Source: a virus
Length of the DNA stretch: 59,308 bases
Direction: 5' to 3' (one strand)
IMG/VR virus record: IMGVR_UViG_3300030099_001381
Location: 1-59,308 of that record
Part shown: one piece after another, positions 14,570 to 49,601 of the stretch
Numbering within the stretch: the stretch's first letter is position 1
Layout of the letters: the number at the start of each line of letters is the position of its first letter
The notes under the pieces: model-generated
Seen by the model: only the letters and a program-made list of their open reading frames with translations
The model's database searches: none
What the model was told of the DNA's origin: nothing
Translations under genes and position numbers: made by a program

Positions 14570-14586
14570 CTCACTCTTACTTAGCT

Positions 14587-14850
14587 GATGTTCGCTGTTG
14601 GTGATTCACTCGCACTCATTGATGTTGAACAGACCTGATTTACATTTCATACTTATGATGTTCGTGTTCAATGATTCATTCCAATTTTTCTGATGCTTCA
14701 TAAGCTTTGATTCATTTGATTGAGCTGATGTTCCATTACTTTGATTCATTTAATCTCTAAGATGTTCCATTATATTGATTCATTTATATGTAGTGATGTT
14801 CGCAGTCCATGATTCATTTGATTGAAGTGATGTTCGCATCCCATGATTTA
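14587..14850. repeat. Degenerate tandem repeat array, 8 units of 34-36 bp
   Basis: GATGTT (or GATGCT) occurs at 14587, 14621, 14657, 14692, 14727, 14761, 14795 and 14829, each followed after about 7-10 bases by TGATTCATT or a variant (TGATTTACA, TGATTTATT). Unit spacing is 34-36 bp and not a multiple of three. No unit is palindromic. The arrangement resembles iterons or an operator array; it could be an origin, a partition-like site or a regulatory array. Confidence 0.8.
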
Positions 14851-14988
14851 TTAATTAATATTAACACACTCAACCTTTGGTAATTCTTCTTTAGGTTGTG
14901 CAACAACTATTAACATACCAAAAACTATCAATGCAATAAAGAGTATTAATTTATCATGCCATTTAAGTATAGGTTCTTTTTTAATCAT
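14851..14988 (-). CDS. 45-residue single-pass membrane protein
   Basis: Leftward frame starting MIKKEPILKWHDK, then a hydrophobic segment (about residues 14-30, LILFIALIVFGMLIVVA) and a short acidic tail ending in a Cys. AGGAAA precedes the ATG at 14988 by seven bases. It overlaps the stop of the 63-residue gene. It is the last gene of the leftward operon before the 35-bp repeat array. Function unknown; orientation looks like N-in, C-out. Confidence 0.55.
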   Translation of the reverse strand: MIKKEPILKWHDKLILFIALIVFGMLIVVAQPKEELPKVECVNIN

Positions 14989-15172: not shown

Positions 15173-15365
15173 TTACCATCTCCCATTGATTTTTAAATTC
15201 TTTAATCCATATGATTTGATCTACTGTTAAATTTGGATAAAAATGTAACATTTCATCAGCAGATTTTAAATCATCATCAATAAATCCATTCTTAATACCC
15301 CATAAAGTGTATTCGTTTGTTAATTGATCAATTCTTTTGTTGTAGTATTGTGATTTTTTTTGCAT
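15165..15365 (-). CDS. Small protein, unknown function
   Basis: The 66-residue product starts by overlapping the stop of the IS110-like gene by one base (TAATG). It is aromatic-rich and helical (YNKRIDQLTNEYTLWGIKNG, then WIKEFKNQWE). No domain was recognised. Coupled translation suggests a link to the upstream DNA-binding protein. Confidence 0.55.
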   Translation of the reverse strand: MQKKSQYYNKRIDQLTNEYTLWGIKNGFIDDDLKSADEMLHFYPNLTVDQIIWIKEFKNQWEMVNG

Positions 15366-16204
15366 TATTTTTCTCCCAATGCTTCTTCTATTGTATGTGG
15401 TGGCTCAATTAAGTGAGCGTGATCTAAGTGTGATATTGCGTATGGAACAGGTGCTTTTCTTCCTGTTTCTTCTTCAAACCATACAGCATGAAGATGTGAT
15501 AAGAATAATTTAACAACCCATCTTTTTGCTATAGCATGGACATGAGCAGGTGGTAATTTACCTTTAATGTAACACTTGTATGCATCAGTAGTCTTACCAA
15601 AATTTTTCTTGTTTAACTGTGCTTTTGCATGATCTTTATAATAACCTTGCTCATTCCTATCTATTTCAAATTGCTTTCTTTTAGCATACTCTTTACCATA
15701 AAAAGCATCTTCAGACCCACTTACTTTTACAAATGATTCACCTAACTTCCAACATAAGTTTTTTAATGATGCATTCCAAGGTCTTCTCTTTCCTTTCTCC
15801 CAAACTTGATTAGGATTTAAACCTGCATAGTTCCATATGTGACCTACTGTTGGTGCTTTGTTGATATCTATATGTGCAAGTAAACCTGCTGATAAAACTC
15901 CTGCTACACCTTTATTATGTAACAACCATTTACCAACAGGTCTATTCATTACATATGTTTGGAGCAACCTCCTTATTTGTTTTTCTAAATAAGAAGATTG
16001 CTCTGCAAGATAAATTAGGGCATCATGCTCTTCTCCAATTTTAGAAGCCTCCCTAACTTGAGCATCTAACCTAATTCTGTCATCCTGCATTTGATAATAA
16101 TAATCTACCAACCATCTAAGTTCTGAGTTACCTAATTTAATAGCACTCTTGATTACATCTTTATTAATTTTAGCGATTGGTGTTAAGTATGTTGAATAGT
16201 CCAT
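15365..16204 (-). CDS. IS110-type transposase C-terminal-like DNA-binding protein
   Basis: This 279-residue protein has, at about residues 97-155, the helix-hairpin-helix pattern of the IS110/IS116/IS902 Transposase_20 domain: GVAGVLSAGLLAHI, then YAGLNPNQ, then the LKNLCWKLGES helix. The N-terminal RuvC-like DEDD nuclease domain of IS110 recombinases is absent, and the place where the family normally has a Ser-Gly reads VWEKG. It is therefore not expected to transpose. A consensus promoter lies upstream (16237-16264) and GGAGAGG precedes the ATG. Likely a domesticated DNA-binding or junction-binding protein. Confidence 0.6.
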   Translation of the reverse strand: MDYSTYLTPIAKINKDVIKSAIKLGNSELRWLVDYYYQMQDDRIRLDAQVREASKIGEEHDALIYLAEQSSYLEKQIRRLLQTYVMNRPVGKWLLHNKGVAGVLSAGLLAHIDINKAPTVGHIWNYAGLNPNQVWEKGKRRPWNASLKNLCWKLGESFVKVSGSEDAFYGKEYAKRKQFEIDRNEQGYYKDHAKAQLNKKNFGKTTDAYKCYIKGKLPPAHVHAIAKRWVVKLFLSHLHAVWFEEETGRKAPVPYAISHLDHAHLIEPPHTIEEALGEK

Positions 16205-22486: not shown

Positions 22487-22519
22487 AAAAAAAAACACCC
22501 CACTCCGAAAAGTGGGGTG
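22487..22519 (-). terminator. Strong leftward intrinsic terminator
   Basis: Perfect 9-bp stem CACCCCACT / AGTGGGGTG (22496-22504, 22511-22519) followed on the minus strand by nine T. It ends leftward transcription after the 22544-22714 gene and protects the convergent primase gene. Confidence 0.9.
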
Positions 22520-22889: not shown

Positions 22890-22911
22890 AATTTTTCTCC
22901 CTTGTTGGTTA

Positions 22912-22931
22912 GGCAAAATTACCTAGACGAT
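22912..22931 (-). promoter_or_regulatory. Leader motif ATCGTCTAGGTA, site 1
   Basis: The minus strand reads ATCGTCTAGGTAATTTTGCC upstream of the 22889 gene, overlapping the stop codon of the upstream gene. One of six copies before leftward genes. Confidence 0.75.
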
Positions 22932-23260
22932 TAATCTAAATCAAAATCCATTTCAAAATCTATTTCATTATCAGGAACTGAAGAACTAAATGGAAATCCT
23001 GACAGCACTGCTATTTGCAAAACTTTATCTCTCATTTCTTGTAATTCTTTTTCTTCTCCATAAAGAAAAACTATACAACAAACCATCATCCAAAAAGAAT
23101 CTTTCTCTACGCAATCATTGTTGTATGTAAGAACTATTTCTTTCTCTGTAAAATTTAATGAAAGAGTATCACCTAATTGATGAATAATTTTAACTTTGTT
23201 GTCATCATCTTCCTGAAGTTTATTTCCACTAGGAAATTCTAAAATTTTTACCATAATCAT
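22931..23260 (-). CDS. Unknown protein with acidic C-terminus
   Basis: About 109 residues from ATG 23260 (AGAG eight bases upstream; ATG 23254 is also possible). It has a beta-like first half and a hydrophobic segment (DSFWMMVCCIVFLYG) that may be buried rather than transmembrane, then an acidic end (DNEIDFEMDFDLD) resembling DNA-mimic tails. Function unknown. Confidence 0.55.
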   Translation of the reverse strand: MIMVKILEFPSGNKLQEDDDNKVKIIHQLGDTLSLNFTEKEIVLTYNNDCVEKDSFWMMVCCIVFLYGEEKELQEMRDKVLQIAVLSGFPFSSSVPDNEIDFEMDFDLD

Positions 23261-23324
23261 CAATATAGCTCTTTAAAATAGCAAACACAACAAAATCGAC
23301 CTCTCAAAATGCTCTCTAAACAAA

Positions 23325-23371
23325 AGTAGCATCTTATCCCATATAGTTTTATATGAAAAAAAAATGCTACT
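23325..23371 (-). other. Large hairpin in leader, possible attenuator
   Basis: AGTAGCAT pairs with ATGCTACT, and inside it CATATA pairs with TATATG, giving a nested stem between two leftward genes. On the minus strand the stem is followed by TTTTG. It may terminate or attenuate transcription before the 23260 gene. I see no gene in 23264-23420. Confidence 0.5.
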
Positions 23372-23422
23372 GTATGAGCCTTAAAATCGGTCTTTATTTA
23401 ATAAACAGCAGAAAATAGCCAT

Positions 23423-23575
23423 TTATTCATCGTACATTTTAATGACATTTTCATCTTCAAGATGCTTGTTATTAATTAGATAATGAATTTTATTTAATCT
23501 AATTCTTTCCCTGACTTCTTTTAGTTTACCAATATACCATATAGATTTACTCTCTTTATCTTCATAGATTTTCAT
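23423..23575 (-). CDS. 50-residue charged protein, unknown function
   Basis: Leftward frame MKIYEDKESKSIWYIGKLKE and so on, start 23575 overlapping the previous stop (ATGA), with GGGAG eight bases upstream. Hydrophilic, with a helical second half. Part of a coupled set of tiny leftward genes. No domain was recognised. Confidence 0.55.
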   Translation of the reverse strand: MKIYEDKESKSIWYIGKLKEVRERIRLNKIHYLINNKHLEDENVIKMYDE

Positions 23576-23832
23576 ATTGTTATCTCCCTAGATTTATTTT
23601 TTAAAAACTCTTCATGAGTTTTTATTGATCTTTCTGCATACCAATCTCTTTCATATTTGGTTCTGTAATAATAAATATGATCTTGAGAAAGGTCTCCATT
23701 AAATCTTCCTGAATTTAATAGAGTAAGAAGATCATCTAAATCTATGATCCTCTTCTCCATTTTGTATTCATCCCAAACATAAATCTTTATAGATTGTGTC
23801 TTGGGAACTTTTAAAAATGGCATATCTACCAT
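23572..23832 (-). CDS. 86-residue protein, unknown function
   Basis: Starts at 23832 with GGAGG five bases upstream. Contains beta segments (QSIKIYVWDEYKMEKRIIDL) and a C-terminal Tyr/Trp-rich helical part (YYRTKYERDWYAERSIKTHE). Followed by a gene that overlaps it by four bases. Function unknown. Confidence 0.6.
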   Translation of the reverse strand: MVDMPFLKVPKTQSIKIYVWDEYKMEKRIIDLDDLLTLLNSGRFNGDLSQDHIYYYRTKYERDWYAERSIKTHEEFLKNKSREITI

Positions 23833-23843
23833 TTACTCCTCCC

Positions 23844-24221
23844 TTAATTTACTGCTTTATTTTTCCTTGCATCAAACTCATTAGATAATTTTCTTCTTTG
23901 AGATGGGGTCATCTTCACCACATCATCTAATGTTATATTACCAACCAAATCTTTTTCATGTTGCATGGCATTAAAATACAACTCTCTTTCTTTTGGTGAT
24001 AACTTTTTTACAAAAATTAAATTAGCAATAAAATCATAAACACACTCTGATATTGCTTGTTCAGGTGCGTCACACTTTTTTAATTTAGTAACCATATCAG
24101 CAATATAATTTACATCTTCTTGATCTAAATTTATTTCACCAACATCAAGTACAACTCTTACACCACCTTGTTCTAATATTTCAAAGTCACTCATGCGTCT
24201 TTTATCTTTATTCTTTGACAT
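23844..24221 (-). CDS. 125-residue helical protein, unknown function
   Basis: I place the start at ATG 24221 (MSKNKDKRRMSDFE), five bases after GGAGG. The frame is open to 24233, but that ATG contains the ribosome site. The protein is mostly helical with repeated Leu/Lys/Glu segments and two Cys. The leader motif ATCGTCTAGGTA lies about 130 bases upstream, separated by a GGGAAATCCCTAT repeat. Function unknown. Confidence 0.6.
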   Translation of the reverse strand: MSKNKDKRRMSDFEILEQGGVRVVLDVGEINLDQEDVNYIADMVTKLKKCDAPEQAISECVYDFIANLIFVKKLSPKERELYFNAMQHEKDLVGNITLDDVVKMTPSQRRKLSNEFDARKNKAVN

Positions 24222-24245
24222 ACTGTCCTCCATAATAAATTATTT

Positions 24246-24285
24246 AGGGGAAATCCCTATGGGAAATCCCTATGGGAATTCCCTG
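24246..24285. repeat. GGGAAATCCCTAT short tandem repeat in leader
   Basis: GGGAAATCCCTAT is present twice with a further partial GGGAATTCCC, each able to form a small GGGA/TCCC hairpin. It lies between the leader motif and the 24221 gene. Confidence 0.6.
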
Positions 24286-24350
24286 AACTCTCTTGCCTAA
24301 CTACTATCATAATACTACTATCAGAGTAATTCCTTTGCAAAATAATTCTA

Positions 24351-24362
24351 CCTAGACGATCA
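24351..24362 (-). promoter_or_regulatory. Leader motif ATCGTCTAGGTA, site 2
   Basis: The minus strand reads GATCGTCTAGGT upstream of the 24221 gene, with a longer leader than the other copies. Confidence 0.65.
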
Positions 24363-24402
24363 ATTTTATCAGCTCGAAAAGCAGGGGGATGTAAAACATA
24401 AG

Positions 24403-24418
24403 TATTCCCTAGAGAATA
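24403..24418. repeat. CTAG-centred near-palindrome nested in a G/C-run hairpin
   Basis: TATTCCCTAGAGAATA is flanked by AGGGGGATGTAA on the left (24382-24393) and TTACACCCCCCC on the right (24426-24437), which can pair around it. Its 35-base core is identical to the site at 22414. Confidence 0.8.
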
Positions 24419-24453
24419 TTTAATATTACACCCCCCCTTGGGGATTCAGAATT

Positions 24454-24606
24454 TTAAGTCCAACACTTATAATGGATACCATCATCTGCATGACGACCAC
24501 AAAATTCACAGTAGCCATCTTCATCGTAATGGTTCATTGATTTTTCATACTCATGCTGTTCAGCAAGATAATCTTGCCTAGTCATTTCGTATTCTTTATC
24601 AATCAT
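24454..24606 (-). CDS. 50-residue zinc-ribbon-like protein
   Basis: Leftward frame MIDKEYEMTRQDYLAEQHEY and so on; start 24606 with AGGAGG six bases upstream. The C-terminal half has a metal-binding pattern CEFCGRHADDGIHYKC (C-x2-C, His, Cys), suggesting one zinc. Located in the tiny-gene cluster. Could bind a host protein or nucleic acid; no specific family was recognised. Confidence 0.6.
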   Translation of the reverse strand: MIDKEYEMTRQDYLAEQHEYEKSMNHYDEDGYCEFCGRHADDGIHYKCWT

Positions 24607-24615
24607 TTTTTCCTC

Positions 24616-24846
24616 CTAATTAAATCTCTTAACAACAATAAATCTATCGCCATCAGATACTTCATAAATTGGAACATCTTCTTCTGCATTAATTATTGCC
24701 TGAAACATTTCATCTACAGTTATGGTAAAACCATCTTTATTCGCTGATAAAAAGTCTTCAACTGAGCATTCAAACTCTTGTTGATCTGTATCAGGTGATA
24801 TCCCAATCATTCTGAAATCAAATTTACTTTCTTCTAGACTGACCAT
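24616..24846 (-). CDS. 76-residue acidic protein, unknown function
   Basis: Start at ATG 24846 (MVSLEESKFDF) with GGAGG nine bases upstream; ATG 24852 would have only three bases of spacing. Mixed alpha/beta, acidic, with a Cys in FECSVEDF. It overlaps the end of the preceding 58-residue gene. Function unknown. Confidence 0.55.
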   Translation of the reverse strand: MVSLEESKFDFRMIGISPDTDQQEFECSVEDFLSANKDGFTITVDEMFQAIINAEEDVPIYEVSDGDRFIVVKRFN

Positions 24847-25000
24847 TTGCATATACCTCCTCTAAATGTCTTATCAACATATCAAGACTTGACTTAACAG
24901 CATTAACTTCATCAAGACTACTGTCTAAGTTATGTTTTCTGTCTAATACAATATCGTATGCGATATTTTTTAAATTTTCAATTGGAACTTTTATTATCAT
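24824..25000 (-). CDS. 58-residue helical protein, unknown function
   Basis: Leftward frame MIIKVPIENLKNIAYDIVLD and so on, start 25000 with AAGGAGG six bases upstream. Two amphipathic helices are likely (residues 8-22 and 31-50). It starts inside the 3' end of the previous gene and its 3' end covers the start of the next one. Function unknown. Confidence 0.6.
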   Translation of the reverse strand: MIIKVPIENLKNIAYDIVLDRKHNLDSSLDEVNAVKSSLDMLIRHLEEVYANGQSRRK

Positions 25001-25139
25001 TTGTTTCCTCCTTTTCTAAATTGTCTAGTAATTCGTGTACAGCATCACTTAATCTTTGAGGGATAACTGTAACATTTTCTTTTTCATTATTATCCCATGT
25101 AACAGTAATGTTCCAATCTACTATTTCTTTTTTAGTCAT
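24978..25139 (-). CDS. 53-residue protein, likely paralogue of the next upstream gene
   Basis: Leftward frame MTKKEIVDWNITVTWDNNEK and so on, start 25139 overlapping the previous stop (ATGA) with GGAGG upstream. The segment WNITVTWDNNEKENVTVIPQ followed by an acidic helix resembles the C-terminal half of the 95-residue upstream gene (LNVTWGDGHESKYEHFELP), so a tandem duplication is likely. Function unknown. Confidence 0.6.
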   Translation of the reverse strand: MTKKEIVDWNITVTWDNNEKENVTVIPQRLSDAVHELLDNLEKEETNDNKSSN

Positions 25140-25423
25140 ATGCTTTCCTCCCTTGGGTTTAATTCTTTATTCACTTCAGATAAAAATTTATCTACACCAT
25201 TGGCTACATCTGTGGGCAATTCAAAATGTTCATACTTACTTTCATGACCATCTCCCCATGTAACATTAAGAGTGTAAATTGCACTATAATCTTTTTCCCA
25301 AACATATTCATCATTTCCAAAATGATAAACTATTTTTGTAGGAACACCTCTTGACTCTAATTCTTCTGTCAATGCATCTCTACTTATTTCATCTTCAGGA
25401 TAGTGTGTATATGTATTACTCAT
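25136..25423 (-). CDS. 95-residue protein, unknown function
   Basis: Start 25423 with AAGGAGG seven bases upstream. N-terminal acidic helix, then beta strands (IVYHFGNDEYVWEKDYSAIY, TLNVTWGDGHE) and a C-terminal helix. It overlaps both neighbours by four bases and shares its second half with the downstream 53-residue gene. Function unknown. Confidence 0.6.
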   Translation of the reverse strand: MSNTYTHYPEDEISRDALTEELESRGVPTKIVYHFGNDEYVWEKDYSAIYTLNVTWGDGHESKYEHFELPTDVANGVDKFLSEVNKELNPREESI

Positions 25424-25635
25424 TTGCTTTCCTCCTTAGAAAATAAATATTTAGCATATTTTATACTAATGTTTTTAATATCACCACTAACTAAGTCTTG
25501 AACAACAAAAGGTTTTTTCCAACCTCCTGATCTGAAATCAACAAGGACATATCTTCTTGCTCCTGTCATTGCGATTTTCTTTTCATCAAGACCAAGTCCT
25601 GTAGTCATAAACTTTAATGAACTAATTTTACTCAT
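25420..25635 (-). CDS. 71-residue basic protein, unknown function
   Basis: Start placed at ATG 25635 (MSKISSLKFMTTGLGL), where GGAG is six bases upstream; ATG 25647 is in frame but lies before the ribosome site. Small beta-type protein with Lys/Arg-rich ends (ARRYVLVDFRSGGWKKPFVV). First gene after the VWA-gene hairpin and leader motif site 3. Function unknown. Confidence 0.6.
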   Translation of the reverse strand: MSKISSLKFMTTGLGLDEKKIAMTGARRYVLVDFRSGGWKKPFVVQDLVSGDIKNISIKYAKYLFSKEESK

Positions 25636-25658
25636 GTGTTTCTCCATCGATTTGTTAA

Positions 25659-25678
25659 GGCAAAATTACCTAGACGAT
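25659..25678 (-). promoter_or_regulatory. Leader motif ATCGTCTAGGTA, site 3
   Basis: The minus strand reads ATCGTCTAGGTAATTTTGCC, identical over 20 bases to site 1. It lies between the hairpin that follows the VWA gene and the 25635 gene. Confidence 0.8.
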
Positions 25679-25691
25679 TTTGTTATTAGGA

Positions 25692-25714
25692 AGAGGGGAT
25701 CAGCGATCCCCTCT
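25692..25714 (-). terminator. Hairpin after the VWA gene
   Basis: Perfect 10-bp stem AGAGGGGATC-AGC-GATCCCCTCT lying 13 bases after the VWA gene stop. No T-run follows, so it may be a processing or stabilising hairpin rather than a terminator. Confidence 0.55.
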
Positions 25715-25726
25715 CTCCTATATTTT

Positions 25727-27091
25727 CTATTGATAGACATCAACCTCAACAACCTCTGCCCACTCAGGTGCATAGTCTGTTGTGCCTGTTGTTGCCCACA
25801 CCACAGGATAATCGACATCATCTCTTCTTGAAGAGACATAGCCATCTGTAAAGTAGATAGCGACATCAGGTATCTCAGTCTCATCATGATCAGTCTGATC
25901 TATAAGATTGAGGAAAGGGTCAACTTCTGTACCACCACCTGACATCTCTCTCATGACGATATCTTCTTCTTTACATTTGAAGACATCCCATTTGCTCTCA
26001 TAAAGATCATCATCACCATTGACTGTCATCACTGTTGAATTGATGTAGCAAATCTTGATGGTTTGAATGTTAGGAAACTCATCAGTGATTGCTTGAATAT
26101 TCTTTACGAATATCTGTCTCTCTTCAAGACTGACACTACCTGAGATATCGATGCCAATTGCAAGAGTACCACTTTCCATCGGTTTCTTAGATGGTAGGTA
26201 GATGTCTTGAGCAAGGTATCTTCTTTCATATCTTCGGTATGATCTTTCGTCACCCTCAAAGAATGCAGTAAGATGCTGACTGATAACATCAGTCCAAGAG
26301 ATTGGATTTTGTTGAGCAGACTTTCTTGCATTGCTCATCAACCCTACACCACTTCCATCACCATTAGCTTTCTCTATCAGATCAGCTTGGATGATTGCAT
26401 CAGTGATGCGTTCATCTTCTTCTTGGATAGCTTGGTCAATATCAGATTGTGATACACCATCTTCACCAACAGGAAGATCAAGAACTTCACCACCAAATCC
26501 ATCGGCACTTAACTCTTCGCCATCTTGATCATCATCGCCTGATTGCTGACCACCTTGAGGTTTGAAGTATTTAGTTTTGCCATCCTCATCTTTTTCTTTT
26601 TTGAGTAATGCAAAAACTTTCTCAGCACTCATTTGACCATACTGTTTGTCGTAAAGAGCATTCATGTTTCTGAGCATATCAAGTGTGCGATAGCCATAAT
26701 CATTTTCTAGAATTCTGACTAACTCATAATTGATTACATAATCAGTAGCAATGTTCCAACCTTCAGGGTCTCTCTCACCTCTCCTGATATGATGTTTCCA
26801 CATGACATGAAGACCTTCATGCAACAGGATAGCAAACAGTCTGAACCTTGTTTCATCAAGACCAACTTCGTTATACATATCCTGTATGCCTGATGGCGAA
26901 TATAAAACAACCTTGCCATCTGTTGCCATCATGCCAACCGAGTCATCAGCAACTAATTGTAATGGAAGGAAAATTGAAGTGTAACCAAAGTAGTTATCAG
27001 TTATTCTTCTCTTTGCTCTTACCATTTCTTTCTCAATATCAATTGCTGAGATATTAATATTCCCTAGGGAATTTTTATTTAATGCAGTCAT
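25727..27091 (-). CDS. VWA-domain protein with metallopeptidase-like domain (DUF2201-type)
   Basis: In this 454-residue protein, residues 80-130 contain H91-E92-x2-H95 (LLHEGLHVMWKH), a zinc-peptidase-like motif. An acidic linker (about 165-230) follows, then a von Willebrand A domain: D315-x-S317-x-S319 (DISGS), the MIDAS Thr in GGGTEVDP and the Asp in FTDG. This arrangement is that of MoxR-associated DUF2201 proteins. AGGAG lies six bases before the ATG. It forms a three-gene unit with the AAA+ ATPase and an unknown partner, probably a chaperone-like or remodelling complex. Its target is not evident. Confidence 0.8.
   Translation of the reverse strand: MTALNKNSLGNINISAIDIEKEMVRAKRRITDNYFGYTSIFLPLQLVADDSVGMMATDGKVVLYSPSGIQDMYNEVGLDETRFRLFAILLHEGLHVMWKHHIRRGERDPEGWNIATDYVINYELVRILENDYGYRTLDMLRNMNALYDKQYGQMSAEKVFALLKKEKDEDGKTKYFKPQGGQQSGDDDQDGEELSADGFGGEVLDLPVGEDGVSQSDIDQAIQEEDERITDAIIQADLIEKANGDGSGVGLMSNARKSAQQNPISWTDVISQHLTAFFEGDERSYRRYERRYLAQDIYLPSKKPMESGTLAIGIDISGSVSLEERQIFVKNIQAITDEFPNIQTIKICYINSTVMTVNGDDDLYESKWDVFKCKEEDIVMREMSGGGTEVDPFLNLIDQTDHDETEIPDVAIYFTDGYVSSRRDDVDYPVVWATTGTTDYAPEWAEVVEVDVYQ
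27059..27072. repeat. CTAG-centred palindrome in the 5' end of the VWA gene
   Basis: ATTCCCTAGGGAAT is a perfect palindrome 19 bases inside the coding region. It is near enough to the start to act as an operator or RNA element. Confidence 0.75.
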
Positions 27092-27092
27092 A

Positions 27093-28133
27093 TTAAACTC
27101 CTAATAGTGATTTAGATTTAGATAATTTCTTTGCAGTATCTTCTCGCAATTCATTATCCTCTCTTAGTGACTCAGTAGTAACACCTTCAAGACTATCTTT
27201 AGCAATGCTAATTGCGTTAGCAATTTCTTCGCTATTAACAAATGCATTGTTACGATCTTCAGCAATGCTGATTGTCTTTTTAAGATTAGCAACTAAAGTG
27301 TTTCTGAAAGGCGATGCTTTTTTATTTGTTGCATCATACTTAGCAAGACTATCAACTGCTGAGTCGATGCTCTCGGTAAGAGCAGTAACAGTATCATTGA
27401 TAACTTTGCTTTTGAATTGTTCCTCTCGTTGCACTTGTTGTTGTCTTATCCTAGCAAACAACTGAGCATGGTTTGGATTATCTCTCCTGCTATAAAAATC
27501 TCTATGACTTGGATTGTCAGTAAAAACTGTACGATCTAAATCAACAGTAGGAATAGCAGAGACATGATCATAAAGATGAAACAGTCCTTGTTTCCAAGGC
27601 TCATCACCCACATAGAAAATCTTCATCTTGCCGTAGTTATATTGAAGACTTTCTTTTTCTTCTTGGGTAAGAGGTCTATCAAGTAAATCATCAACAGGTG
27701 GATAGTCATTCTCGTTGTATGCGTTACCTAACTCAACTCTCTGATCTTCTTTAGCCTTCTGATATTTCTTAACGAAAGGGTTAAGAAAACCATCAACCAT
27801 ATCTGACTTGAAAGCATCCCATTCTTTTTCAACTAACTCTGCATGTTGATTAAGAACAAAATGCCATTGACCTTCATGAGGTATCATCCATTCGGATATG
27901 TCCAAACGAAATCTACGAACTCTATTCTTCATGCTCTTGATCAATTCTTTGTCGATCAATTGCTTTCTGACAGAGAACACATCCTGATTGCCATTGACAC
28001 CATTTGAAACATGAACAGATAATTCTTTGTCCAACTTTTCAAATGTAGGTATTTTAACTTCAAATCTTTTCAGAGTACCTAACTCTTCAAGACCCATAAC
28101 TGAACTAGCAATGTCGATATTATTGTTCTGCAT
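27093..28133 (-). CDS. MoxR/VWA-associated protein of unknown function
   Basis: 346 residues from ATG 28133, chosen for AAGGAGG six bases upstream. Mostly helical; residues 55-115 (QLIDKELIKSMKNRVRRFRL) and the surrounding pattern recall DUF3150-type proteins found beside CobS/MoxR-like ATPases, but this match is from memory and weak. The C-terminal 110 residues are rich in Ser, Ala, Asp and helical. It lies between ATPase and VWA genes with almost no spacing, so it is probably a subunit of the same complex. Confidence 0.6.
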   Translation of the reverse strand: MQNNNIDIASSVMGLEELGTLKRFEVKIPTFEKLDKELSVHVSNGVNGNQDVFSVRKQLIDKELIKSMKNRVRRFRLDISEWMIPHEGQWHFVLNQHAELVEKEWDAFKSDMVDGFLNPFVKKYQKAKEDQRVELGNAYNENDYPPVDDLLDRPLTQEEKESLQYNYGKMKIFYVGDEPWKQGLFHLYDHVSAIPTVDLDRTVFTDNPSHRDFYSRRDNPNHAQLFARIRQQQVQREEQFKSKVINDTVTALTESIDSAVDSLAKYDATNKKASPFRNTLVANLKKTISIAEDRNNAFVNSEEIANAISIAKDSLEGVTTESLREDNELREDTAKKLSKSKSLLGV

Positions 28134-28143
28134 TAGAACCTCC

Positions 28144-29235
28144 TTATATTTTGTTGCGTAAAGTAAATGATGAGTAAGTTTTTGTTTCCATAAAATTAGG
28201 ATTTTTAGAAACAATCAACTTAGTAGTGAACACCTCGTACTCAGGTGAATTAAATCTTGCTAAGTAAGTAAGAGCATTTTCAAAATCTTGCTCACTCTTT
28301 ACCATCTTAGTAAGAGCAGATGATACTGCATATCTGATGTTAGATTGAGATGCATCAGGAACATCAACTGTATCAGGTGAAGAAAGTATATCCTGAACAT
28401 TTGGTGCATCTTTTACCAAATCTAAAAAGGCTACGAAACTTTCACCAACAGTATCACCAACACAACCTTTGTATAAGGCTCGTTGTGATTTTTTATTGAG
28501 AGGTAAATTTTTAGAATGCAACCTCGCCAATTCAGTAATACTTCTTGGTGATGCACCCTTTTCATGCTTACCAACTTCTTCATAGTTAGATAAACTTTTT
28601 GGCTCAAGTTTGATAAAGGAAATAACATCCTCATCAACATCATTATCCATCGCCCAATCTATCCAAGTTTGTGCATCGCTTTCAACCTGACCCCAATATG
28701 AGATACGATCTTTCAGTGTGTTCAATGTTCTTTGAACTCCTGCATTGTCGCCAACCCTATTTGTTGCCATCACGATGTGCCATCCCTTGGGTAATTCGTA
28801 CCCATTGAATTTTCTTGCTCTCGTGATCTGCATCAAAAACTTCTGCACATCCTGATCACCTTGACCCATCTCATCGATCATCAGAATTCCACATCCTTCT
28901 TGAGGAAGTAATTCTGAGAATGCATAATTTAATTTAGTCTTGTCTGCATTCGGTGTTGGTATCGCAAGATCAGATGCTGTTGTGATACTCGCAACAATTG
29001 TTGCAAATCCAAACTCATCTTTTGATGGGTTTGATGTTTCGGTAAACTTGAGATTTAGATTTTCTGCTACATCTTTTGCAACATCGATCAGGCTCTCAGT
29101 CTTACCAATACCTGCACCACCTGATATCAGTAAAACTGATTTCATTGTTTGATTGGGGTCTTCATTCCAATCTGATAGAATTATTTTTTTGATGGTGTCG
29201 ATACTTTCTTTGATAGTCTGTGTTGATTTACTCAT
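28144..29235 (-). CDS. MoxR/CobS-like AAA+ ATPase
   Basis: 363 residues from ATG 29235 (GGAG eight bases upstream); an in-frame extension to 29310 has no support and overlaps the leader motif. Walker A GGAGIGKT at residues 39-46, Walker B GILMIDEMG near residue 120, sensor 1 IVMATNR near 165, and an arginine-rich region after SPRSITELARL. This is the MoxR family, which works with VWA partners to remodel or insert cofactors into target proteins. First gene of the triad. Confidence 0.85.
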   Translation of the reverse strand: MSKSTQTIKESIDTIKKIILSDWNEDPNQTMKSVLLISGGAGIGKTESLIDVAKDVAENLNLKFTETSNPSKDEFGFATIVASITTASDLAIPTPNADKTKLNYAFSELLPQEGCGILMIDEMGQGDQDVQKFLMQITRARKFNGYELPKGWHIVMATNRVGDNAGVQRTLNTLKDRISYWGQVESDAQTWIDWAMDNDVDEDVISFIKLEPKSLSNYEEVGKHEKGASPRSITELARLHSKNLPLNKKSQRALYKGCVGDTVGESFVAFLDLVKDAPNVQDILSSPDTVDVPDASQSNIRYAVSSALTKMVKSEQDFENALTYLARFNSPEYEVFTTKLIVSKNPNFMETKTYSSFTLRNKI

Positions 29236-29319
29236 GGTAAAATCTCCGTAAAAAAAGATTATTCGTTTTATTAGTTTTTGAATAATCGGTGATGGCTCTG
29301 ACCACACCATGTGATCAAA

Positions 29320-29331
29320 TACCTAGACGAT
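29320..29331 (-). promoter_or_regulatory. Leader motif ATCGTCTAGGTA, site 4
   Basis: The minus strand reads ATCGTCTAGGTA, about 85 bases upstream of the AAA+ gene and directly after a hairpin. Confidence 0.75.
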
Positions 29332-29336
29332 CCTAA

Positions 29337-29359
29337 GAGAGAGGAATTAATCCTCTCTC
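29337..29359 (-). terminator. Hairpin overlapping the end of the 35-residue gene
   Basis: Stem GAGAGAGGA / TCCTCTCTC with loop ATTAA; the stop codon of the 29454 gene lies in the loop. No T-run. Followed by leader motif site 4. Confidence 0.5.
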
Positions 29360-29454
29360 ATATTGATTTTAATTTGGTCTATTGCAAACCAAATAGAAAA
29401 ACCAAGGGGTATTAATACAAAAAATATAAAAGATATTATTAAAAAATAATCCAT
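29347..29454 (-). CDS. 35-residue membrane peptide
   Basis: Leftward frame MDYFLIISFIFFVLIPLGFS, then about 15 residues ending IKINMRED. It starts within TAATG of the previous stop. One transmembrane segment covers residues 4-26. Translation is probably coupled. Function unknown; it is one of several tiny membrane peptides in this genome. Confidence 0.5.
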   Translation of the reverse strand: MDYFLIISFIFFVLIPLGFSIWFAIDQIKINMRED

Positions 29455-29714
29455 TATTTATCCTCCTCTTGAATAATTCCTTGAACAGCTTTTAAGAATT
29501 TATCTCTCTCTTCAGGATGAATATCTGCATCAACATCGAAGGATTCTAATTCCTCAAATAACTCATCATTAGTAAAACCTAATTTCATTTCGTCATTATC
29601 CATATGAATATCTGCATCAACCCAACACCAATTAACAGAACCATCTTCGTTTATGTTTTCTTGATTGTTTAGAGCCTTGATAATCAAATCTTTTATAGTA
29701 ATATTTTTAGTCAT
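29454..29714 (-). CDS. 86-residue acidic protein, unknown function
   Basis: AAAGG lies seven bases upstream of the ATG at 29714. Strongly acidic, with two similar pieces (WVDADIHMDNDE near residue 31 and DVDADIHPEERD near 60), suggesting an internal repeat or metal-binding loops. Leader motif site 5 is 30 bases upstream. Function unknown. Confidence 0.6.
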   Translation of the reverse strand: MTKNITIKDLIIKALNNQENINEDGSVNWCWVDADIHMDNDEMKLGFTNDELFEELESFDVDADIHPEERDKFLKAVQGIIQEEDK

Positions 29715-29743
29715 ATCATTTTCCTTTTGTTAGTAGGTAGAAT

Positions 29744-29755
29744 TACCTAGACGAT
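29744..29755 (-). promoter_or_regulatory. Leader motif ATCGTCTAGGTA, site 5
   Basis: The minus strand reads ATCGTCTAGGTA then ATTCTACCTACTAAC, upstream of the 29714 gene. Confidence 0.75.
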
Positions 29756-29762
29756 ATCTGAA

Positions 29763-29783
29763 AGGGGGAAGTAAATTCCCCCT
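29763..29783 (-). terminator. Hairpin after the 200-residue gene
   Basis: Stem AGGGGGAA / TTCCCCCT with loop GTAAA, 23 bases after the stop, followed on the minus strand by TTCAGATATCG and then leader motif site 5. Confidence 0.55.
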
Positions 29784-29805
29784 AGCATTTAGAGCATTTT
29801 CTGCA

Positions 29806-30408
29806 TTAGATTTGGATATCTTCGAAACCAAAATCAGCTACAACTTTTGCTTTGCCTGTATGATTATTTACGATGATGTCTCCAACACTCAGTGAAGCAA
29901 ATGCTCTTGTGATACTTGGCTCATCATCCTCACCTCTGATCTTTTCGATCATGCTGTAATTACAAATGACATCTTCATAGATATCTTCACCATCTGCATC
30001 CAAGAAAGTATGAGTATTTAAGATTTCAAAAAGATCATCAAAAAATAGTTTACTCATTCCTTTTCTTATTCCTTCGTCAGTTTTTACATCAACAACTTTT
30101 TTCATTCTTGATTTCAAATACTCAGGTTTCCATACTTCTTCAACATCTCTTCTTCTTCCGATGCATCCCATCATAAATGGGAAATCATCTTCCATCGTAG
30201 CAGGTCTTCCATTCATGTATAAATCGTCTCTGTAATCAGGGTCTATTTGGTAGATAGAAAAATCATTGATAAAACTTTCACCATCGCTTTTGATGTTGGT
30301 TAGATATGCAACAGCATCATCTGTATTCAGATAGCATTGAGGTGCAGTTTCATTTGATTTGATGTAGATATGATTTGGGTTTCTTTCTTGATATTTTTTC
30401 ATAGACAT
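29806..30408 (-). CDS. 200-residue protein, unknown function
   Basis: Start 30408 with AAGGAGA six bases upstream; a second ATG follows at 30402. Mixed alpha/beta, with acidic middle and C-terminus. The last 30 residues (LSVGDIIVNNHTGKAKVVAD) look like a small beta barrel. It is the first solid gene of the leftward region next to the control region and so probably early. No family was recognised. Confidence 0.65.
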   Translation of the reverse strand: MSMKKYQERNPNHIYIKSNETAPQCYLNTDDAVAYLTNIKSDGESFINDFSIYQIDPDYRDDLYMNGRPATMEDDFPFMMGCIGRRRDVEEVWKPEYLKSRMKKVVDVKTDEGIRKGMSKLFFDDLFEILNTHTFLDADGEDIYEDVICNYSMIEKIRGEDDEPSITRAFASLSVGDIIVNNHTGKAKVVADFGFEDIQI

Positions 30409-30440
30409 GATTGTCTCCTTGTTTTGTTAGTAGGCAAAAT

Positions 30441-30452
30441 CACCTAGACCAT
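30441..30452 (-). promoter_or_regulatory. Leader motif, divergent copy (site 6)
   Basis: The minus strand reads ATGGTCTAGGTG then ATTTTGCCTACTAAC, 33 bases upstream of the 30408 gene. Two of 12 bases differ from the consensus. Confidence 0.65.
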
Positions 30453-30513
30453 TTGAAAAATCAGGTGGACACAACCTCACCGATCATGCCCACCGATTTT
30501 CTAATCGTTTCGA

Positions 30514-30651
30514 TCACTTAACCCTTGCGTGGAAACCACGATCCTTACAGGGCATAACTACAACTTTGTTGATTAACTTGTGAAGCAGATCATCATCAGT
30601 AGGCTCTTCACAATTCGCAGGGTACTGCTTATTAGATTCCCTATGGCACAC
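30514..30651 (-). CDS. Possible 45-residue protein with GTG start
   Basis: The frame from GTG 30651 reads (M)CHRESNKQYPANCEEPTDD and ends with KVVVMPCKDRGFHARVK. Composition looks coding and contains three Cys. The same frame continues upstream to an ATG at 30729 with a ribosome site (GGAAG), but a single TAA at 30664-30666 interrupts it. Either the gene starts at GTG with a poor ribosome site, or it is broken or recoded. Confidence 0.4.
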   Translation of the reverse strand: MCHRESNKQYPANCEEPTDDDLLHKLINKVVVMPCKDRGFHARVK

Positions 30652-30666
30652 CTCTTCGATGATTTA

Positions 30667-30729
30667 ATGATCGGTTCGCACAGCTATCGATAGATCAAGC
30701 AAACTTCCTCTCAGTACCACCCCTTGCAT
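30667..30729 (-). pseudogene. Upstream 21 codons in frame with 30514-30651, interrupted by TAA
   Basis: ATG 30729 is preceded by GGAAG seven bases away and encodes MQGVVLRGSLLDLSIAVRTD plus His, then TAA at 30664-30666. It may be a leader peptide for the downstream frame or the 5' part of a split gene. Confidence 0.3.
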
Positions 30730-30836
30730 CTCAATTCTTCCGATGACTAACTATGTTGGGTTCTAATCAGATTGGGATATTTAATCTGATCATCATAAAA
30801 GCCTAAAATGTCCTCCTCTTGGTTAACTTCGTAGAA

Positions 30837-30864
30837 GTTACAGGACGAATGCACCTTTTGTCAA
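30837..30864 (-). promoter_or_regulatory. Possible leftward promoter
   Basis: On the minus strand TTGACA (30859-30864), a 16-base spacer, then TGTAAC (30837-30842). The -35 is perfect and the -10 weak. It would transcribe the whole leftward region from 30.8 kb. Confidence 0.45.
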
Positions 30865-32236: not shown

Positions 32237-32258
32237 ATTTGCAGGGAGAAAATAGACT

Positions 32259-32552
32259 ATGAAAAAAAATGATGAATGCCCAACAGTAGAAGGAGAAGAT
32301 TGTACAATATCCTTTAATGCTGAGTATGTACTAATATCCCATAAAAAAAAATTTTTTAAAAAGTACCTCACGATAGATGAACATGAAAAACTTTTTAAAA
32401 ATATATCTAGAAGTTATTGGGATAAGAAATATCAACACGATCAAATTACTTTACTAGAGGATGCTATAAAGGTACAAAAGAAATCGAGGAAAGTTTTATC
32501 AGATGCAGAAGAACTTTCTTCTGATATTGGTTTAATGATAGACAAATTTTAA
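32259..32552 (+). CDS. 97-residue protein, unknown function
   Basis: GGGAG lies ten bases before the ATG. Lys-rich middle (SHKKKFFKKYLTIDEHEKLF) and a helical C-terminus. Its stop overlaps the start of a tiny membrane peptide. Function unknown; early position in the packaging block. Confidence 0.6.
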   Translation: MKKNDECPTVEGEDCTISFNAEYVLISHKKKFFKKYLTIDEHEKLFKNISRSYWDKKYQHDQITLLEDAIKVQKKSRKVLSDAEELSSDIGLMIDKF

Positions 32553-32629
32553 TGACACTGACTTACTTTGATATTTTTGGTATTGCGGCTCTCCTAGTAT
32601 TACTGTTAAACTTTTGGTTGAAAAAGTAA
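32552..32629 (+). CDS. 25-residue membrane peptide
   Basis: The frame MTLTYFDIFGIAALLVLLLN then FWLKK starts in the TAATG of the previous gene and ends one base before the next ATG. One transmembrane segment with a basic C-terminus. Gapless packing between two genes argues that it is real. Function unknown. Confidence 0.5.
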   Translation: MTLTYFDIFGIAALLVLLLNFWLKK

Positions 32630-48920: not shown

Positions 48921-49601
48921 ATGCCTCATTTTAGTCTGAAAATATCAGATAGAGTAAAAGAAACTACTACTACAACAGGCACAGGCACTCTTACTCTTGC
49001 AGGTGCTGTTGATGGATTTCAGGCTTTTAGTGTTTTAGGTGATGGAGCAAGAACACAATACGCTATTGTAGATACAGGAAACAATACATTTGAAACAGGA
49101 ATAGGAACTTATACATCTAGTGGTACTACATTAAGTAGAGATTTTATTTTTGAATCTTCTAATTCAAACGCATTAGTTAATTTTGGTGCAGGTGAAAAAC
49201 AAGCATTTGTTACCATGCCAGCTGAAAGATCAGGTGTTTTATCTGCTGTTGATATATCCTCTGCTTCAGGAACTATTAATGGAGCACAAAATGTTATACC
49301 TGAAACAACAGGTGGATTTACTTTAGGTTCAGTATTTACAGCAAAAAATGGTACAACAATAGGTGCAAATGGCTCGGTAACTGTATTCGATAATTCAGTA
49401 TATTATATTGCAGATACACCATATGTTAACGAAGTTTCTCCTTTTTGGTCTGATGGTACAATCACAGAAAATACAGTTGCTTTAGGACAATTTAATGTGG
49501 TAGGCTCGGTATCAATTACTGGTTCAGGAAGCGTTGAAGTTATTGACGCAACTTCTCACGCCACACTAGATTTAGGTAACACAGTTACATTAAACGCATA
49601 G
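48921..49601 (+). CDS. Tail fibre-like protein
   Basis: 226-residue beta-rich protein (GTGTLTLAGAVDGFQAFSVL, FETGIGTYTSSGTTLSRDFI), with a second half rich in Gly, Ser, Thr (GSVSITGSGSVEVIDATSHA). Directly follows the previous gene. The N-terminal half is of the kind often seen in marine phage tail genes. Likely tail fibre or baseplate component. Confidence 0.65.
   Translation: MPHFSLKISDRVKETTTTTGTGTLTLAGAVDGFQAFSVLGDGARTQYAIVDTGNNTFETGIGTYTSSGTTLSRDFIFESSNSNALVNFGAGEKQAFVTMPAERSGVLSAVDISSASGTINGAQNVIPETTGGFTLGSVFTAKNGTTIGANGSVTVFDNSVYYIADTPYVNEVSPFWSDGTITENTVALGQFNVVGSVSITGSGSVEVIDATSHATLDLGNTVTLNA

Follow-up and report, generated by a model that had tools for sequence, protein, structure and literature searches.

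Repeated leader motifs without known function have already been described in other phages. The SAS/ESAS of Cluster K mycobacteriophages are short asymmetric repeats, mostly in one orientation, which precede a subset of non-structural genes, follow relatively large intergenic gaps and in about half of the cases have inverted repeats upstream; their function is unknown (PMC3203893). Here we describe a motif, ATCGTCTAGGTA, in an uncultured phage, the IMG/VR record IMGVR_UViG_3300030099_001381, whose 59,308 bases were analysed as a whole (the window). It resembles SAS/ESAS in being repeated, mostly in one orientation, before non-structural genes, but it does not belong to them: the conserved 13-bp GGGATAGGAGCCC adjoining the start codon was not found, the core here being [A/T]TNGTNTAGGTA located 35-47 nt before the start codon in most copies; the motif opens a hairpin itself, with a pairing backed by compensatory changes, and the sequences are unrelated. 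Nothing closer than SAS was found in the literature on repeated intergenic hairpin motifs in phages.

The promoters of the N4 virion polymerase and the T7 class III transcripts combine a promoter with a hairpin or an early-transcript hairpin, and T7 early mRNA bears intercistronic RNase III processing sites, which are longer duplexes. As in the former, the motif is strand-specific, repeated before genes and joined to a hairpin; unlike them, no polymerase was found, the hairpin length differs by 18 nt at one orthologous site and only one operon is concerned. As with the T7 RNase III sites, the motif would lie between the genes of a polycistronic phage RNA, with hairpins at the RNA ends; in contrast to them, a 5-bp stem plus a conserved flank would be enough in many copies.

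Motif copies in the window and in related phages

Five exact copies of ATCGTCTAGGTA and one with two mismatches (ATGGTCTAGGTG, 30441-30452) were found at 22.9-30.5 kb, all on the minus strand and within one operon, when about 0.007 exact copies would be expected from the base composition (hand estimate). The exact copies are located at 22920-22931, 24349-24360, 25667-25678, 29320-29331 and 29744-29755, and the full ATCGTCTAGGTAATTTTGCC is present only at 25667 and 22920. Allowing up to two mismatches, 10 matches were obtained versus 3.05 +/- 1.83 in shuffled sequences, a number that no shuffle out of 100 attained as high as 10. The six minus-strand copies of the original prediction were thus confirmed at the positions given there, except for 24351, which should read 24349-24360; the plus strand, described as free of copies, has no exact match, and its four two-mismatch matches fit the chance background. 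The distance between core and start codon was 35-43 nt at four sites, 95 nt at 29330 and 138 nt at 24359.

A direct repeat of about 100 bases at its termini indicates that the window is probably a complete phage genome. Its gene complement is podovirus-like (terminase, portal, ejection protein, primase/helicase and Sak-type annealing protein), and its terminase is 52-58% identical to those of the Pelagibacter phages HTVC027P and HTVC023P and of phages 023Pt_psg01 and DSL-LC04. A phage collection searched with the motif region gave no near match. The motif was found in the IMG/VR relatives G005 (3300030450_001965), G006 (3300005837_001047), G007 (3300009420_000670), G008 (3300025138_012800), G001 (3300030376_007437), G003 (3300030380_006664), G004 (3300007276_000454) and G002 (3300030328_002071), this phage being G000 in the comparisons; contig L046 (3300030101_003910) has a core of the G002 type. 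The six sites of the window and 29 further copies in relatives made up a set of 35 sites, from which the near-duplicate G003 was left out and GTCTAGG matches inside coding sequence (e.g. in the terminase gene) were excluded by eye. The original prediction would have been weakened by a lack of conservation in relatives; since these keep the motif, that objection falls. The copies of the window, all on the minus strand, are as follows:

30431..30452, minus strand: motif copy 1, with the variant sequence ATGGTCTAGGTGATTTTGCCTA and a short hairpin; the start codon of a 200-aa open reading frame (ORF), 29806-30408, follows at 43 nt
29734..29755, minus strand: motif copy 2, ATCGTCTAGGTAATTCTACCTA, short hairpin; precedes an 86-aa ORF, 29454-29714
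29294..29331, minus strand: motif copy 3, with the hairpin in its long form (a 10-bp inner helix added to the outer stem); precedes the AAA/MoxR-type ATPase gene
25658..25678, minus strand: motif copy 4, ATCGTCTAGGTAATTTTGCCT, short hairpin; precedes a 75-aa ORF, 25420-25647, with the core 42 nt from the start codon
24340..24360, minus strand: motif copy 5, ATCGTCTAGGTAGAATTATTT, exact core, weak hairpin made up solely of A-U and G-U pairs; an ORF follows at 138 nt
22910..22931, minus strand: motif copy 6, ATCGTCTAGGTAATTTTGCCTA, short hairpin; adjoins the stop codon of the upstream gene, with no upstream hairpin; orthologous copies in G001 and G004

All 35 sites lie within the ATPase/VWA operon, on its coding strand, and share the conserved block. 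Column information upstream of the core revealed no -10 or -35 element and nothing strongly conserved at a fixed distance, and sigma-70 hexamers (-35 and -10 with 16-18 bp spacing) were found neither in this way nor by a consensus scan, in agreement with the earlier view that the motif does not look like a sigma-70 promoter. A sigma-54 promoter was also rejected, the GG-to-GC spacing being 7 and not 10 and the long hairpin breaking it.

In most copies TAGG begins a hairpin with the closing stem UAGGU/RCCUA, and the folding energy over the 35 sites (mean -7.28) was lower than in shuffles (-5.12 +/- 0.34). The short form can be written AGGYR-N4-TRCCT, in which 95 of 95 pair cells pair. In the long form the outer stem is retained and an inner helix of 8-10 bp is inserted; four pairs are changed on both sides, 100% of the cells are paired and 0 of 500 column shuffles were as high, a control made on seven related sequences and hence not a probability. 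At the site that is orthologous between G007 and G008 the 18-nt difference is confined to the hairpin interior, the core, closing strand and flanks being identical, and the core-to-start distance passes from 46 to 64 nt. A T-G pair is common (AGGTA/TGCCT), which is a wobble in RNA and a mismatch in a DNA palindrome. The pair-preserving variation, the swapped loop and the restriction to one operon together suggest action in RNA, and the start of the hairpin inside the motif, which the original prediction had missed together with the confinement to the operon, also favours a role in RNA.

In the other sequences examined the motif was not recovered. G009, a close relative, has most proteins in common with this phage (27-96% identity), and its ATPase and VWA genes are retained; the motif, the intergenic hairpins and the leader RNA described below are absent there. 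No convincing copy was found in the first 50 kb of each of the isolates HTVC023P, HTVC027P, 023Pt_psg01 and DSL-LC04, two GTATAGG sites of HTVC027P overlapping sigma-70-like TATA boxes, and the hairpin pattern was absent from the distant VWA-gene loci examined. A covariance model built from 19 copies recovered those and one long-form copy, and no other significant match came from the 500 kb searched, which included G009, the four isolates and what remained of the window; this search tests the short form only, because most long-form and G002-type copies escape the model. A match in contig G010, located within an ORF, and the single match in bacterial genomes, antisense inside a TonB-receptor ORF, were attributed to chance.

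Gene cassettes and the leader RNA

A strong hairpin was present at most 90 nt upstream in 26 of the 35 copies, versus 19 of 209 control windows (9%). In the window such a hairpin directly precedes four copies (30464-30494, 29763-29783, 29337-29359 and 25691-25715), not three as previously proposed, and a larger one precedes that at 24359. The upstream hairpins, with the exception of the leader terminator, mostly have no U-tract, so the internal ones do not look like terminators; the consensus terminator scan showed strong terminators at two places on the minus strand, where the leader ends and where the operon ends. The features around the copies are:

30464..30835 (5' end approximate), minus strand: noncoding leader RNA, conserved and about 370 nt long, preceding motif copy 1
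30464..30494, minus strand: terminator-like hairpin and T-run at the leader 3' end, its stem kept via compensatory changes in relatives
29763..29783, minus strand: 3'-terminal hairpin of the unit before copy 2, weak T-tract
29337..29359, minus strand: 3'-terminal hairpin of the unit before copy 3, weak T-tract
25691..25715, minus strand: 3'-terminal hairpin of the unit before copy 4, T-tract absent
24384..24437, minus strand: larger hairpin before copy 5, enclosing the palindrome TATTCTCTAGGGAATA
22496..22519, minus strand: canonical intrinsic terminator at the operon end, 10-bp stem and nine T

The gene of a protein containing KYQERNPNH follows the motif in G000, G005, G006 and G008, at differing places and preceded by differing hairpins; therefore the motif seems to move together with the gene after it, and the hairpin with the gene before it. 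One unit of G002 consists of a lone tRNA-Trp gene, without an ORF, and the core lies about 10 nt before the tRNA 5' end.

The leader has counterparts in the other motif-bearing phages, its internal alignment being uncertain, and an invariant CCUACUGAUGA segment is found in most relatives. The sequence TTGACA at 30859-30864, before the leader, is a possible -35 element. An Rfam scan of leader and motif gave no family at the gathering threshold and only chance-level matches, among them the PreQ1 riboswitch, which was rejected; a hammerhead ribozyme in the leader (CUGAUGA..GAAA) was discarded because of wrong closing pairs and no Rfam support. Pairing between leader and motif RNA was also dismissed, since the duplex energies were overall no better than in shuffles, and the best complement to the motif in the leaders of G000, G005 and G006, GCCUACUGAUGA, loses its pairing where the motif changes. 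The co-occurrence of leader and motif may be accidental, because G009 is a single comparison.

Several other features were observed. The stretch separating motif copy 5 from the following gene contains a 13-bp tandem repeat (2.8 copies, 24248-24284). A possible attenuator, a weak AT-rich hairpin followed by seven T (29250-29287, minus strand), lies downstream of motif copy 3 and ahead of the ATPase start codon; G005 and G006 retain it, and in G008 an unrelated hairpin takes its place. The palindrome ATTCYCTAGRGAAT has eleven copies in the window, within and between genes (7450, 14093, 18605, 20986, 22415, 24404, 27059, 30896, 39594, 43685 and 55064), and other palindromes are found in G002 (ATTCCATACGGAAT) and G009 (AATACTAGTATT); this genome-wide palindrome is possibly an operator. 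The minus-strand gene at 15365-16204 encodes a TIGR-Tas RNA-guided protein of 279 aa (NCBIfam NF052498, E 8.5e-60; PDB 9mty and 21kl), with homologues in G001, G002, G004 and G009. Close by, GAACATCA/GAATCA repeats form a tandem array (about 14580-14855, minus strand) that looks like its TIGR array, and similar arrays are present in G002 (about 49130-49360) and G009 (about 32250-32620). The motif was not considered a REP/RAYT element, because the 279-aa 'transposase' is this TIGR-Tas protein and all motif copies have one orientation.

Possible functions of the motif

The motif looks like a phage-specific mark where mRNA segments begin, and we tentatively favour, at less than even confidence, that it is a phage-specific cis-acting RNA element defining or protecting the mRNA 5' ends of exchangeable gene cassettes. 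The whole operon would be transcribed into one long RNA in which the core NNGUNUAGGU supplies the 5' strand of a small hairpin that precedes the ribosome-binding site; this hairpin is either UAGGU/RCCUA closed by 4 loop nucleotides or that outer stem with an inner helix inserted. Each cassette would consist of the motif marking its start, a ribosome-binding site, the gene or genes and a 3' hairpin. A phage or host factor could recognise the element and set or protect a 5' end at this point; the segment before it would then end in its own hairpin, and the one after it would begin with the motif hairpin. The strand, the position, the restriction to one operon, the conserved core, the hairpin kept in most copies and the one upstream of most copies are read from the sequence, whereas action in RNA and not DNA, the formation or protection of 5' ends and the acting factor itself are what we infer; the observations suggesting action in RNA and the tRNA unit led us to prefer this explanation. 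Several results weigh against it: neither a ribonuclease nor a protein binding RNA was identified, transcription would have to read through the terminator that lies just before copy 1, the short stem alone was not above column shuffles, as the variation in each pair is one-sided, and several copies in G002 and L046 retain the core without a clear hairpin, implying that the hairpin is not always needed. The promoter, RNA processing site or regulator site of the original prediction are partly supported.

A phage-specific promoter is a close rival of the 5'-end element and almost equally likely, since conservation is higher in the core than in the hairpin and the leader terminator lies just upstream of copy 1. 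A phage-altered host RNA polymerase, or an unrecognised phage polymerase, would start at or just after TAGG, and the hairpin would stabilise the mRNA at its 5' terminus, as happens with some T7 transcripts. In the phages examined copy 1 has a strong terminator before it and the first gene after it, the short core-to-start distance fits a short 5' untranslated region, and the core also stands before the tRNA gene, all of which agrees with this; however, neither a -10 nor a -35 element was seen over the 35 sites, the motif is confined to a single operon and does not precede any structural or recombination gene, and U-tracts are mostly absent from the internal upstream hairpins. No RNA polymerase was recognised among the large proteins scanned, which does not establish its absence, and a PF00940 search gave no match, nor did its controls.

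It is unlikely that the hairpin is the binding site of a phage or host translation regulator, that is, a start-associated sequence tuning initiation of the downstream gene. The distance to the start codon is near-constant after allowing for the hairpin insertion, as this would predict, but the ribosome-binding site lies outside the hairpin, and the lone tRNA unit of G002, preceded by the core without any ORF, disfavours pure translation control. Still less probable is a nut- or put-like site loading an antitermination complex: a conserved core followed by a hairpin, the leader terminator and the weak hairpin with a T-run before the ATPase start codon in G000, G005 and G006 would suit it, whereas copy 1 follows the leader terminator instead of preceding it, the repeats are many per operon, the consensus has no boxA-like sequence and the internal hairpins have no U-tracts. 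In position and in boxA the motif differs from such sites, which lie upstream of the terminators they suppress and have boxA or a put fold.

Returning to the RNA element at cassette starts, it is doubtful, though conceivable, that the factor is an as yet undescribed structure- and sequence-specific endoribonuclease or polymerase-modifying factor, encoded or recruited by the phage, which would define the 5' ends of the cassette mRNAs and share its system with the co-occurring leader RNA. A methyltransferase, a 107-aa protein, which its acidic tail may mark as SSB-like in our reading, a Sak-like protein and two small proteins (56 and 62 aa) are among those present in G000, G001, G002 and G004 and not in G009; none of the genes missing from G009 is an obvious acting factor. 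The orthologous sites amount to naturally occurring mutants, with compensatory pairs, an exchanged loop or a core that has lost its hairpin, which reveal what selection keeps, and G009, with its ATPase and VWA genes and neither motif, intergenic hairpins nor leader, is a ready comparison for finding the factor that acts on them.
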